Positions 26,230-32,369 of a stretch of 64,000 nucleotides of DNA are shown piece after piece. The stretch's first letter is position 1; every line of letters starts with the position of its first letter. The position numbers and the translations under genes are program-made. A model generated the notes under the pieces. It was given only the letters and a program-made list of their open reading frames with translations, was not told where the DNA came from and did no database searches. The stretch lies in assembly GCF_000420145.1 (NCBI RefSeq), contig NZ_ATUJ01000015.1, positions 1-64,000 on the forward strand, in the 5' to 3' direction. This DNA is from Paracoccus zeaxanthinifaciens ATCC 21588 (GTDB lineage Bacteria > Pseudomonadota > Alphaproteobacteria > Rhodobacterales > Rhodobacteraceae).

Positions 26230-27165
26230 ATGACCGCTGACATTCCGACCCCCCGTGGCAGCCTGATTGCCAACCGCTCTCTCGACAGTCTGACCTGGCT
26301 GCGCGTGGGCGGCCCTGCCGACTGGCTGTTCCAACCCGCGGACGAGGCCGACCTGGCCGAGTTCCTGGCGGCGCTGGACCCCCAGGTTCCGGTCTTCGCG
26401 ATGGGCGTCGGCAGCAACCTGATCGTGCGCGACGGCGGTATCCGCGGCGTGGTGATCCGGCTGGGGCGCGCCTTTAACGGGGTCGAGATCGACGGCGACA
26501 TCGTGACCGCGGGCGCGGCATCGCTGGATGCGCAGGTCGCGCGGCGGGCGGCCGATGCGGGGCTGGATCTGACCTTCCTGCGCACGATCCCCGGCAGCAT
26601 CGGCGGCGCTGTGCGCATGAACGCCGGCTGCTATGGCACCTACATGGCCGACCGCCTGATCGACATCACCGCCGTGACGCGGGACGGGCAGGTCGTCACG
26701 CTGGACGCCGCGCAGCTGAGGCTGGCCTATCGCCATTCCGAACTGCCCGAGGGCTGCGTGATCACCGGCGTCCGCATGCGCGCGCCCAAGGGCGATCCCG
26801 ACGCGCTGCATGCCCGCATGGCCGAACAGCTGGAACGCCGCGATGCGACCCAGCCGACCCGGGACCGCAGCGCGGGGTCCACCTTCCGCAATCCGGCGGG
26901 CTACAGCTCGACCGGGCAGGCCGACGACACGCACGAGCTGAAGGCTTGGGCGCTGATCGATCAGGCCGGGCTGCGCGGCCACAGCTGGGGCGGCGCGCAG
27001 ATGTCGCAGAAGCATCCGAACTTCCTGATCAACACGGGCGGCGCGACCGCCGCCGATCTCGAAGCCCTGGGCGAGCTGGTCCGCCGCCGCGTCCTGGAGG
27101 AGAGCGGCCACGAGCTGCAATGGGAGGTCGTTCGCATCGGCGAACCCGGCCCAGAGGAAAGTTAA
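26230..27165 (+). CDS. murB: UDP-N-acetylenolpyruvoylglucosamine reductase
   Basis: MurB reduces the enolpyruvyl group to give UDP-MurNAc, using FAD and NADPH. The 311-aa type-II protein has the FAD-binding motifs [16 protein letters not shown] (about 58-73) and [18 protein letters not shown] (about 119-136). The catalytic serine is in [11 protein letters not shown] (about 214-224), and the C-terminal Glu region is [18 protein letters not shown]. The first half of a CtrA-type box overlaps its stop codon. Confidence 0.96.
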
Positions 27166-27202
27166 GGCCGGGTTAACCGGCGAAAGCTTGCAAACTTATA
27201 TT
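27162..27202 (+). promoter_or_regulatory. CtrA-type box overlapping the -35 of the ddl-ftsQAZ promoter
   Basis: TTAA (27162-27165), seven bases, then TTAACC (27173-27178) match the full CtrA consensus TTAA-N7-TTAAC. An 18-base spacer leads to TATATT (27197-27202), so the second half-site doubles as the -35 element, the arrangement of CtrA-activated Caulobacter promoters. The transcript would have a leader of about 115 nt containing CCCCG-ATCAAAA-CGGGG (27296-27310 region) near the ddl start. Confidence 0.6.
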
Positions 27203-27325
27203 CTGAAACGAGAAAATGCGCTTTTGTGCGCAGGGCTTTGGCTGTATTCTTTGTGATGCGCGGGGCCTGACGGTCGCGCGCCTTCTTCATGAACCCCGAT
27301 CAAAACGGGGATGAAAGGCAAATAC

Positions 27326-28261
27326 GTGACGGGCAGGTCGAGCAGGACAGCCCCCACAGTGGCCGTTCTGATGGGCGGACCCTCGGCCGAGCGCGAGGTG
27401 TCGCTGTCGTCGGGCCGCGAATGCGCGGCTGCACTGCGGGTGGCAGGATACGAAGTCATCGAGATCGCGCTTGGCGATTCGCGCGGGGACGAGCTGGTCC
27501 GCCGTCTGAACGAGGCTGCGCCCGATGTCGTCTTCAACGCGCTGCATGGCCGGTGGGGCGAGGATGGCTGCGTGCAGGGCGTCCTCGAATGGATGGGGCT
27601 GCCCTATACGCATTCGGGCGTGCTGGCCTCCGCGCTGGCGATGGACAAGACCCGCGCCAAGGCCGCCTTCCGCGCCGCCGGACTGCCGGTCGTCGAAAGC
27701 GTGATCGCCGATGCGGACGAGGTGCGCGCCCGCCACGTGATCGCGCCCCCCTATGTCGTGAAGCCGAATGACGAGGGCAGCTCGGTCGGGGTCTATATCG
27801 TGCATGACGGCGCGAACGAGCCGCCGCAGCTGTCGCCCGACATGCCCGCCCGCGTCATGGTCGAGACCTATGCCCCGGGGCGCGAGCTGACGACCACCGT
27901 GATGGGCGACCGCGCGCTGGACGTGACCGAGATCATGGTCGATGGCTGGTACGACTATGCCGCGAAATACACCGTGGGCGGGTCGCGTCACGTGGTTCCC
28001 GCCGACATTCCCGCCGATATCCGCGAGGCATGCCTTGCGATGGCCCTGCGCGCGCACGAGGCGCTTGGCTGCCGCGGGCTGTCGCGCACCGATTTCCGTT
28101 GGGACGACACGCGCGGTCTGGACGGGCTGGTCATCCTCGAGGTGAACACCCAGCCCGGCATGACGCCGACCTCGCTTGCGCCCGAACAGGCGGCGCATGC
28201 GGGGATCGACTTTCCCGCCCTGATGCGCTGGATGGTGGAGGATGCGCTGTGCCGGTCGTGA
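27326..28261 (+). CDS. ddl: D-alanine--D-alanine ligase
   Basis: Ddl makes the D-Ala-D-Ala dipeptide of the peptidoglycan stem using ATP. The 311-aa ATP-grasp protein shows [19 protein letters not shown] near the N-terminus, [13 protein letters not shown], the ATP-grasp segment [16 protein letters not shown], and the C-terminal LSRTDFRWD and [14 protein letters not shown] (Mg2+ ligands). The GTG at 27326 was chosen because AAAGG lies seven bases upstream; an ATG at 27311 would add five residues but has its G-run directly abutting. It overlaps ftsQ. Confidence 0.94.
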
Positions 28262-29190
28262 TCGATCACCGCCCCGGAAAGCAGCAGACCCATGACACGG
28301 CGCGTCCGCGCCGCGACCCCGCGCCGTCCCGCCTGAAATACCGCCTGCAGCGCATGTGGCTGCGCCCCTTGTGGCGCCGCGTCGCGCGCATCGGTGCGCC
28401 CGCCTTCCTGGCCGCGATGATCGGGGGGCTGTGGCTGTCCGACGAGGATCGCCGCGCCGCGCTGACCGACAACATCGCCCGCGCCGTGGACAGCGTCCAG
28501 AACCGAGAGGAATTTCAGGTCCGCGAGATGCAGGTCGAGGGGGCCTCGCCCGTGGTCGAGCGCGCGCTGAAGGCGATGCTGCCGGTCGATCTTCCGGCCT
28601 CCAGCTTCGACATCGACCTGCCCGCGCTGCGGCTTCAGGTGATGCAGCTGGACGCGGTGGACACGATCGACCTGCGCGTCAAGCCGGGCGGCATCCTGTC
28701 GGCGGTCGTGACCGAACGGCAGCCCGCGCTGCTGTGGCGCCATGCCCGCGGGATCGAGATGCTGGACGAGGACGGTCACCGCGTCGCCGGCGTCACCTCG
28801 CGCGAGGTGCGCCCCGACCTGCCGCTCGTTTCGGGCGAGGGGGCGGAAGAGGCCACCCCCGAGGCGCTGCAGCTGTTCGATGCGGCCGGGCCGATCCTGC
28901 CGCGCGTGCGCGGGCTGGTCCGGCGCGGCGAACGCCGGTGGGACCTGGTGCTGGATCAGGGTCAGCGGATCATGCTGCCCGCCCAAGGGGCGCTGGTCGC
29001 GCTGGAGGCCGCGATCGCGATGGACCGCGCGCAGGATCTGCTGGCGCGCGACATCACCGTGGTCGATCTGCGCGATCCCAAGCGGCCCGTGCTGCGGCTG
29101 GGGATCGACGCGCGAAACACGATCAGGACCGCCCGTGGCCAGCCCCCCCTGGGGCCGGACGGGCGCATCCTGCAGGACAACGAAGGCTGA
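28249..29190 (+). CDS. ftsQ: Cell division protein FtsQ
   Basis: FtsQ is a bitopic divisome protein. The 313-aa product has a basic cytoplasmic tail, one membrane segment at about 45-62 ([17 protein letters not shown]), then the periplasmic POTRA domain starting at [18 protein letters not shown], and the FtsQ beta domain with [23 protein letters not shown]. The GTG at 28249 has GGAGG seven bases upstream; a second GTG at 28258 overlaps the ddl stop as GTGA and is a possible alternative. Confidence 0.9.
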
Positions 29191-29211: not shown

Positions 29212-30546
29212 ATGGCGGAACTGTACCAGACACAGCGGGCGATGCGGAACATGCGCCGCGCGGCGCTTCAGCGGGGCGTCATCGGCATCCTCGACATCGG
29301 CACCTCGAAGATCGCCTGCCTGGTGCTGCGCTTCGACGGGACCGGAACCTTCCGCGAGACGGACGGCGTCGGGCCGATGGCGGGGCAGGTGAACTTCCGC
29401 GTGATCGGCGCGGCCTCGACCCGGTCGCGCGGGATGCGCCGGGGCGAGATCGAGACCATGGCGGAAACCGAGCGTGCGATCCGCACCGTGGTCGCCGCCG
29501 CGCAGAAGCTGGCGGGCGTCCGGATCGACCACGTGATCGCCTGCATGTCTGGCGGGCGCCCGTCCTCCTACGGTCTGGCGGGCGAGACGCCGCTGGCGCA
29601 GGGCAAGGTCGACGATCACGACGTGGCCAAGGTGCTGGCCGCCTGCGACGTGCCCGATTTCGGCCGAGGCCGCGAAGTGCTGCACGCACAGCCCGTGAAC
29701 TTTGCCGTGGACAACCGCTCGGGCCTTGCCGACCCGAGAGAGCATCTGGGAAACAAGCTGTTCTGCGACATGCATGTCCTGACGGTGGATGGCGACGCGA
29801 TCGGCAACCTGGTCCACTGCATCCGGCGCTGCGACCTGGAACTGGCCGGGATCGCGTCCGCGCCCTATGCCTCGGCGCGCGCAAGCCTGGTCGAGGACGA
29901 GCAGGAGCTGGGCGCGGCCTGCATCGATTTCGGCGGGGGCGGCACGGGCGTGTCGATCTTCGTGCGCAAGCACATGATCTTCTCGGATCACGTGGCGATC
30001 GGGGGCAACCTGATCACGCAGGACATCGCGCAGGGCCTGCGGGTCAGCCTGCCCGTGGCCGAACGGCTCAAGACGCTCAGCGGCGGGGTCGAGGCCACGG
30101 GCCGCGACGACCGCGACATGATCGACATCGGCGGCGATACCGGCGACTGGGAGGCCGATCGCCGTCAGGTCAGCCGTGCGGACGTCATCGCGATCATGCG
30201 CCCGCGGGTCGAGGAGATCCTGGAGGGCGTGCGCGGGGTGCTGGACGCTGCGGGTTTCGACTACATGCCCAGCCAGCAGATCGTGCTGACCGGTGGCGGC
30301 AGCCAGATCCCGGGTCTGGACGGTCTGGCGGCGCGGATCCTTGGGCCGAACATCCGCTGCGGGCGTCCGCTGCGCATCGATGGCCTGTCCCACCAGCTGA
30401 CCGATCCCAGCTTCTCCTCGGCGGTGGGGCTGGCGCTGTTCGCGGCCCATCCGCAGGACGAATGGTGGGATTTCGAGACCCCGGCAGATGCCTATCCCGC
30501 GCGCAGTTTCAAGCGCGCCTATCGCTGGTTCAAGAGCAACTGGTGA
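29212..30546 (+). CDS. ftsA: Cell division protein FtsA
   Basis: FtsA is the actin-like protein that tethers FtsZ to the membrane and recruits late division proteins. The 444-aa protein shows the phosphate-1 motif GILDIGTSKIACLVL (about 24-38), the FtsA-specific 1C region after FRVIGAASTRSRGMRRGEI, phosphate-2 ACIDFGGGGTGVSIF, and the adenosine motif IVLTGGGSQIPGL. The final helix RSFKRAYRWFKSNW is amphipathic and basic, like a membrane-targeting sequence. It lies 21 bases after ftsQ. Confidence 0.96.
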   Translation: MAELYQTQRAMRNMRRAALQRGVIGILDIGTSKIACLVLRFDGTGTFRETDGVGPMAGQVNFRVIGAASTRSRGMRRGEIETMAETERAIRTVVAAAQKLAGVRIDHVIACMSGGRPSSYGLAGETPLAQGKVDDHDVAKVLAACDVPDFGRGREVLHAQPVNFAVDNRSGLADPREHLGNKLFCDMHVLTVDGDAIGNLVHCIRRCDLELAGIASAPYASARASLVEDEQELGAACIDFGGGGTGVSIFVRKHMIFSDHVAIGGNLITQDIAQGLRVSLPVAERLKTLSGGVEATGRDDRDMIDIGGDTGDWEADRRQVSRADVIAIMRPRVEEILEGVRGVLDAAGFDYMPSQQIVLTGGGSQIPGLDGLAARILGPNIRCGRPLRIDGLSHQLTDPSFSSAVGLALFAAHPQDEWWDFETPADAYPARSFKRAYRWFKSNW

Positions 30547-30770
30547 TCGCGGAAACCTTTCGTTAGCGATTGGTGCGGGCTTCCACACCATATTCTGCGC
30601 CCTTGGCAAGATACCGCTTAATTTGCAGGTGAATCTTGCCATATTTTGCGGGCTTTCCGGCTTTTTCGGATGACGGAACGTGGCAGAAAGGTTACGATCA
30701 AGCATAAATCAACGGGATTCGAGCGGGCAGACCGCGCCCGAATGCGAAGCAGCGAAAAACAGGCGGAACC

Positions 30771-32369
30771 ATGAACCTCAATCTGATGATGAACGACGAA
30801 GAAGAGCTGAAGCCCCGCATCACCGTCTTCGGCGTCGGCGGCGCGGGCGGCAACGCCGTCAACAACATGATCGAGAAGATGCTGGAAGGCGTCGAGTTCG
30901 TGGTCGCCAATACCGACGCGCAGGCGCTGCAGCAGAACAGCGCCACCAGCCGCATCCAGATGGGTCCGAAGGTGACCGAGGGTCTGGGCGCGGGCGCCAA
31001 GCCCACCATCGGCGCCAAGGCCGCCGAGGAGACGATCGAGGATATCGTCGATCACCTGATGGGCGCGCATATGTGCTTCATCACGGCAGGCATGGGCGGC
31101 GGCACCGGCACCGGTGCGGCCCCGATCATCGCACAGGCGGCCCGTGAGATGGGCATCCTGACCGTCGGCGTCGTGACCAAGCCCTTCCAGTTCGAGGGCA
31201 CGAAGCGGATGCGCCAGGCCGAGGAGGGCGTCGAGGCCCTTCAGAAGGTCGTGGACACGCTGATCATCATTCCGAACCAGAACCTGTTCCGCCTTGCGAA
31301 CGAGAAGACGACCTTCACCGAAGCCTTCGCCATGGCCGACGACGTGCTGTATCAGGGCGTCAAGGGCGTGACCGACCTGATGGTCCGTCCGGGCCTCATC
31401 AACCTCGACTTCGCCGACGTTCGCGCGGTGATGGACGAGATGGGCAAGGCCATGATGGGCACCGGCGAGGCTGCGGGCGACAACCGCGCGCAGGAAGCCG
31501 CCGAACGCGCCATCGCCAACCCGCTGCTGGACGAGATCAGCCTGAATGGCGCCAAGGGCGTGCTGATCAACATCACCGGCGGCTATGACATGACCCTGTT
31601 CGAGCTGGACGAGGCCGCGAACGTGATCCGCGACAAGGTCGACAGCGATGCGAACATCATCGTCGGCTCGACGCTGGATCCGGACATGGACGGCACGATC
31701 CGCGTCTCGGTCGTCGCGACCGGCATCGACGCCGATGCCGCCCCGGCCGAGGTTCCGACCCCGCGCCGTGGCATGGCCGCGCCGCTGACGCAGAACCCCT
31801 CGATCGCGGATGCCCCGGTGGTCGAGGATCAGGCGACGGTCCGCAGCCAGCAGGCCGCAGCCCAGCCCGCGCCGGCTGCGCCTGCGCCGCAGCCCGCGGT
31901 CCAGCAACCCGCCGCGCGGACCGAGGACGAGATGCCGAAGCCGGCCTATCAGCCGAAGGAAGCACCGCGCCAGAACTCGGTGCGGATCGAGGATGACGCC
32001 TCGGCCTTCGTCGCGCCGCGCGCCCCCCAGGGCCGTCCTGGCCAGCCCACCCCCGAGGTGATGGACCGTCTGCGCCGCGCCGTCGACAACCGCAGCCAGC
32101 AGGGCGCCGCGGCCCAGCAGCAGCCGCAGCAGGCCGATCCGCGCGCGAACAGCCGGATGAGCGGCCTCGGCCGCATGCTGGAGCGTATGGCTGGTCACGG
32201 TGAACAGGGCGCGCAGAAGCCCGCCGCATCCTCGATCGCCGAGCGCGTGAACGAGCGTGTCGCCGTCCGTGCCCGTCAGCAGGAAACCGATTTCGACGAT
32301 CTGGCCAGCCCTGACAATGGCGGCGACAATGTCGAGATCCCCGCTTTCCTGCGTCGCCAGGCGAACTGA
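30771..32369 (+). CDS. ftsZ: Cell division protein FtsZ
   Basis: FtsZ is the tubulin-like GTPase that forms the division ring. The 532-aa protein has the glycine-rich tubulin signature GGGTGTG (109-115) and the T7 synergy loop [11 protein letters not shown]. Residues ~325-510 form a long Pro/Ala/Gln-rich linker, typical of alphaproteobacteria, ending in the conserved C-terminal peptide [10 protein letters not shown] that binds FtsA. AGGCGG precedes the ATG. The 224-bp gap upstream is AT-richer than its surroundings and includes one GANTC site (30716-30720), so ftsZ probably also has its own promoter. Confidence 0.97.

Follow-up and report, generated by a model that had tools for sequence, protein, structure and literature searches.

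The window analysed here, the first 64,000 nucleotides of contig NZ_ATUJ01000015.1 of Paracoccus zeaxanthinifaciens ATCC 21588, carries murB, ddl, ftsQ, ftsA and ftsZ in that order; murB, ddl, ftsA, ftsZ and the features of the murB–ddl gap are on the forward (+) strand. The open reading frame murB (26230..27165) matches the NCBIfam model NF010480 with 362.8 bits (cut-off 259). It is followed by ddl, a D-Ala-D-Ala ligase gene (NF002378, 376.1 bits; cut-off 243). The list of open reading frames places the start of ddl at ATG 27311; the start is probably GTG 27326, since relatives have GTG or TTG at that position, giving a gene of 27326..28261 with the ribosome-binding site GAAAGG (27313–27318) just before it. 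The open reading frame between ddl and ftsA (28030–29190) is called ftsQ on the strength of gene order, in keeping with the initial annotation, a search with NCBIfam profiles having returned no match for it at the threshold used. Both ftsA (29212..30546; TIGR01174) and ftsZ (30771..32369; TIGR00065) score above the cut-offs of their models. Because ftsZ is preceded by an upstream gap of its own, of 225 nt, any effect of CtrA on ftsZ would be indirect.

Three features occupy the gap between murB and ddl. At its murB end is a full CtrA-type box, TTAAGGCCGGGTTAACC (TTAA-N7-TTAACC; 27162–27178), whose palindromic TTAA halves span 27162..27176. TTAA-N7-TTAA occurs once in the window, and none is expected (100 shuffles). 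The left half-site includes the murB stop codon, TAA 27163–27165, as the initial annotation observed, and TATATT (27197..27202), also as described there, follows TTAACC (27173..27178) after 18 bases, or 20 nt past the right half-site. Another hexamer, CAAACT (27191..27196), lies 14 nt after the right half-site and is possibly a −10 of the form.A...T. The second feature, a promoter-like element, begins 44 nt beyond the box. The third is a hairpin, CCCCG-ATCAAAA-CGGGG (27294..27310), located just before the ddl ribosome-binding site and kept in the genus. A search of 26900–27500 against Rfam gave no match up to E 1. A stem of at least 5 Watson–Crick pairs is present in 76 of the 81 distinct genus leaders (shuffles, ∼4.5), and its two sides change together (CCCGG/CCGGG, CCCCG/CGGGG, ATCCTG/CAGGAT, GTCCGG/CCGGAC). 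ATCAA is the favoured loop, found in 39 of the 81 leaders.

CtrA-type boxes across the genome

The genome encodes CtrA (NF045991, 408 bits; cut-off 350), a SciP-family gene that adjoins ctrA, a ChpT-family protein, and a hybrid kinase that scores best against the CckA family, though under the cut-off of that model (516 of 1000 bits). Ten full sites with the N7 spacing occur in its 3.05 Mb. The control spacings yield 11 matches over twelve spacings, or ∼0.9 each: 1 at N8–N9 and 10 at N10–N19, six of the ten in a single AT-rich stretch of contig 1. The nearest relative by MurB is Paracoccus sp. C2R09 (MurB 89% identical), referred to here as the sister; named MurB relatives are all Paracoccus. 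Its genome has 12 sites at N7, 5 at N8–N9 and 16 at N10–N19 (∼1.75 per control spacing), two of the last overlapping its comM and divL-like boxes; control-spacing matches were counted only, without alignment between genomes. The N7 spacing is in excess genome-wide, with 10 sites against 11 over all of N8–N19. The reversed N7 pattern, with AATT halves, is less clear as a control: it occurs 3 times in this genome and 10 times in the sister, so that the sister, with 12, is hardly enriched by this measure. AATT halves are commoner at other spacings too (8 and 17 in this genome; 41 and 93 in the sister).

The ten boxes neighbour genes for a YkuD protein; a glycosyltransferase with an MshEN domain, behind carA; comM/yifB; a holin-associated muramidase with its gene transfer agent (GTA) holin; a CckA-like gene; a probable divL; ddl; radC; an unassigned gene (contig 17); and a gene whose product has a Hint domain (contig 18). 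The probable divL, which has no family match, is so called from its position. Five of the ten boxes precede genes that are CtrA-linked in other Rhodobacteraceae (comM, radC, muramidase–holin, cckA-like and probable divL). In R. capsulatus, comM, radC, endolysin–holin and the sensor-domain gene rcc00042 are reported to form one module that is lowered in a ctrA mutant (PMC4158056, available text), and expression of the endolysin is said to require CtrA (PMC6363796, likewise). In D. shibae, CtrA sites have been located before cckA and divL, according to the accessible portion of PMC4046655.

For eight of the ten sites, ddl included, the sister carries a box in the corresponding position; judged by identity over 80 columns of flanking sequence, 1.42 of those eight would be retained by chance. 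The remaining two (C1 and C17) were compared with the 12 box loci of the sister and match none of them. For the ddl box alone, flank identity is 0.84 and the chance of keeping all 8 bases is 0.24, and for the radC box alone the corresponding chance figure is 0.90. Sharing with the sister speaks for the set of boxes; the ddl and radC boxes taken singly say little. The initial annotation's full CtrA-type box before ddl is thus supported, and the genome around it encodes CtrA and has full boxes before other genes that are CtrA-linked elsewhere. Together, the encoded pathway, the N7 excess, the boxes at CtrA-linked genes and the recurrence in the sister suggest that the ddl box is plausibly a CtrA site.

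Promoter geometry and conservation of the murB–ddl gap

The radC and muramidase promoters serve as references. Matches to them came from 121 and 123 genomes, respectively, of which the 30 that matched best were examined in each case. At the muramidase promoter, the box is exact in 30 of 30, with.A...T exactly 11 nt past the right half in every one. At radC, the box is exact in three and has one mismatch in 27, and.A...T lies 11 nt past the right half in ten genomes and 12 nt past it in twenty. A −10 at 11–12 nt is therefore present in 60/60 of the promoters examined; as background,.A...T occurs in front of these genes at a frequency of 0.03–0.05 per position. This geometry agrees with the published placement of full motifs in Caulobacter, most of which begin near −35 (PMC4287350, available text), and with the R. 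sphaeroides fla2 promoters, where position −11 is described as A and a CtrA site as lying near −35 (excerpts of PMC6180460). Across the genus, the layout before the GTA muramidase and radC can be written TTAA-N7-TTAA-N11/N12-.A...T. The radC start codon lies within a few bases of the −10, so the radC mRNA may be nearly leaderless.

When one strand per box is read, chosen towards the presumed target,.A...T is found at 11–13 nt in seven of the ten boxes of this genome and in five of the eight sister partners. The ddl box has no.A...T at 11–13 nt after its right half-site, in this genome or the sister. Its.A...T at 14 nt, CAAACT (CAACAT in the sister), is 2–3 nt beyond the spacing of the reference promoters. 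The carA–glycosyltransferase and contig 17 boxes resemble ddl in lacking.A...T at 11–13 nt; the former, beside a gene with a c-di-GMP-type domain (MshEN), is kept in the sister even so.

The murB–ddl region was obtained from 116 of 125 genus genomes; the nine left out comprise 2 without a MurB match, 1 at a contig edge and 6 without a DNA match. Counts use the 90 of these 116 in which ddl lies ≤420 nt from the murB stop. In the other 26, which were excluded, ddl is not within that distance, and some have another gene behind murB. The exact box occurs in two of the 90 gaps, those of this genome and the sister (0.07 exact boxes per set when the 90 gaps are shuffled). These two group together in the MurB tree (support 1.0), and confinement of the box to one sister pair implies one origin. 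One-mismatch boxes occur in six further gaps, against 1.48 in shuffles, and their offsets differ. Since most radC boxes also carry one mismatch (27/30), some of these six could be weak sites, which argues against strict lineage-specificity. Among other Rhodobacteraceae, whose murB–ddl gaps are short (median 53 nt), the 31 gaps scored contain no box, even with one mismatch. Conservation in close relatives, the check that the initial annotation had proposed, thus reaches a single sister species, where it may be due to chance (0.24), and does not extend to the genus, at two gaps in 90.

What the genus does keep is the promoter-like element, which the initial annotation missed. CTTTTG-N18-TAnnnT, counted as CT[TC]TTx-N18-TAnnnT, is present in 77 of the 90 genus gaps (shuffles, 0.04 per set) and in 0/32 gaps of other Rhodobacteraceae. 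The copy at 27221–27250 is unique in the window and consists of the −35-like hexamer CTTTTG (27221..27226) and the −10-like hexamer TATTCT (27245..27250). The commonest pair among the 77 elements is CTTTTG/TATCCT (44); CTTTTG/TATTCT accounts for 9. Its −35 is far from TTGACA. On the evidence of conservation, the element is predicted to be the main ddl promoter, of ordinary sigma-70 type, with a transcription start near 27257, which would put the box ∼80–95 bp upstream of that start.

Readings of the ddl box

The best explanation, in our judgement, is that the box is a CtrA site of recent, lineage-specific origin in front of an ordinary ddl promoter, providing at most a secondary input; we put its prospects at about even. 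The full site would have arisen in the lineage ancestral to this Paracoccus and Paracoccus sp. C2R09, partly from the murB stop codon, and phosphorylated CtrA would bind it. Main ddl transcription would proceed from CTTTTG-N18-TATTCT, beginning near 27257 as conservation suggests, and ddl-ftsQ-ftsA(-ftsZ) would receive from CtrA a further input, secondary and conditional. The likeliest route would be for CtrA to help a weak promoter upstream of the main one, in which CAAACT is the −10 and the start is near 27203; less likely is remote action on the main promoter. The box, the pathway genes, the N7 excess, the sharing with the sister, the conserved element downstream and the misfit of the geometry are observed; CtrA binding, the direction and size of any effect, and any reach to ftsZ are what we infer. 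Counting against this account are the weak evidence at the ddl site itself (0.24), the restriction of the exact box to one sister pair in 90 gaps, the lack of.A...T at 11–13 nt in both species, the 44 nt that separate the box from the presumed main promoter, and the sister's N7 count (12), which the reversed pattern (10) makes look ordinary. Two results reported, in the available text of PMC3692519, for Ruegeria KLH11 also count against it: ftsZ was unchanged in a ctrA mutant, and CtrA elicited no response from a full CtrA-like site ahead of cckA.

The main rival is a neutral chance match, which we regard as distinctly less probable, though to be taken seriously. The murB stop would supply one TTAA, the common ancestor of the two species would by chance have gained GTTAAC 7 nt further on, both would still have it because the time since is short, and ddl would be transcribed from the conserved promoter and by read-through only. 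About 0.9 full sites per spacing are expected in this genome by the spacing control, and the chance that the box was simply retained is 0.24. The exact box is missing from 88 of the 90 genus gaps and from the 31 scored gaps of other Rhodobacteraceae, and the CtrA promoter geometry is absent at ddl. Set against this is the count of N7 sites, ten against an expectation of about one, with several of them before CtrA-linked genes, so that a box drawn at random from the ten is more probably real than spurious. Exact boxes are also rare in shuffled gaps (0.07 per set of 90).

The promoter proposed in the initial annotation, CtrA-activated with TTAACC as −35 and TATATT as −10, starting near 27209 and driving ddl-ftsQAZ, we consider highly improbable. 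Its hexamers and 18-nt spacing exist, and TATATT as −10 would put the start of the box near −47, comparable to the motif (N6-type, full) at −49 in Caulobacter podJ P1 (PMC4287350, available text), so that a distant box is not impossible. Full Caulobacter motifs mostly begin near −35, however, the 20 nt from box to −10 compares with 11–12 nt in the genus, and the sister reads TCTATT, with C as the second base of the hexamer. Equally improbable is that CtrA works here without a promoter of its own, by distant action on the main promoter or by blocking murB read-through (repression or modulation), or that the palindrome is a hairpin at the 3′ end of the murB mRNA: the box does lie upstream of the conserved promoter, the RNA of 27150–27200 has a predicted fold of −14.9 kcal/mol (z −1.65), and one-mismatch boxes at other offsets exceed shuffles (6/90 against 1.48), but those six lie at differing places, and the sister's hairpin is weaker (3-bp stem, z −1.09), both TTAA halves being kept there rather than the stem.

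Among the closest known systems, Caulobacter promoters with full sites use the same palindrome as the ddl box (TTAA-N7-TTAA), and ftsQ, which lies downstream of the box here in the same gene order, is among the CtrA-linked targets (PMC4287350, in its available portions). They differ in that the Caulobacter motif mostly begins near −35 of a mapped start, whereas the −10-like hexamers closest to the ddl box lie 14 and 20 nt after its right half. The Paracoccus muramidase and radC sites have the same box, in the same genome, at genes CtrA-linked in R. capsulatus; they are conserved, with.A...T at 11–12 nt, whereas the ddl box belongs to one sister pair and is without.A...T there. The R. sphaeroides ddlA–ftsA promoter is reported to be under NtrX (PMC7240162, in part), likewise a separate transcription input before ddl, and to give a CenR ChIP signal as well (PMC9275681, in part); the available text does not report CtrA there. 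The proposed NtrX site, GCA-N9-TGC, was considered as a rival and set aside: it is absent from the window gap and present in 1/90 genus gaps. Among the open-licence papers listed for CtrA with ddl or ftsQ, Paracoccus or division genes, the accessible text gave no report of CtrA at ddl in Rhodobacterales, and no Paracoccus transcription-start map was among the literature matches listed (best 10 of 296).

In Rhodobacterales, CtrA is associated chiefly with motility, competence and gene transfer agents; a tie to the division genes at this locus is possible but unproven. Were CtrA to act at ddl, a conserved regulator would have been rewired onto division genes recently, in an event that can be dated, and the promoters of the sister and of outgroups would be available for comparing. 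If it does not, the locus is a caution: a perfect box and a −10-like hexamer did not fit the promoter geometry kept in the same genus. In either case, the ddl promoter element of the genus and the spacing seen in its CtrA promoters allow both readings to be tested. The ddl box is a candidate for lineage-specific CtrA rewiring, and its chance of being so is real but modest. The fuller claim is rather doubtful: that CtrA was newly recruited to the ddl-ftsQ-ftsA promoter region in this Paracoccus pair, giving a Rhodobacterales lineage a direct CtrA-to-division link that converges on that of Caulobacter and couples gene transfer and competence with septal wall synthesis.

The genome also encodes GcrA, and GANTC is scarce in the window (44 against 302 expected). 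GANTC (CcrM/GcrA) was rejected as a cell-cycle input at the ddl promoter, being absent from the element of the window and from that of the sister. Within the genus, 26 of the 77 ddl elements have it at the same place in the spacer, where shuffled spacers give 4.0. The ftsA–ftsZ gap holds two GANTC sites (30631–30635 and 30716–30720), for which a comparison is Caulobacter ftsZ, reported as activated by CcrM in the available text of PMC3708114.
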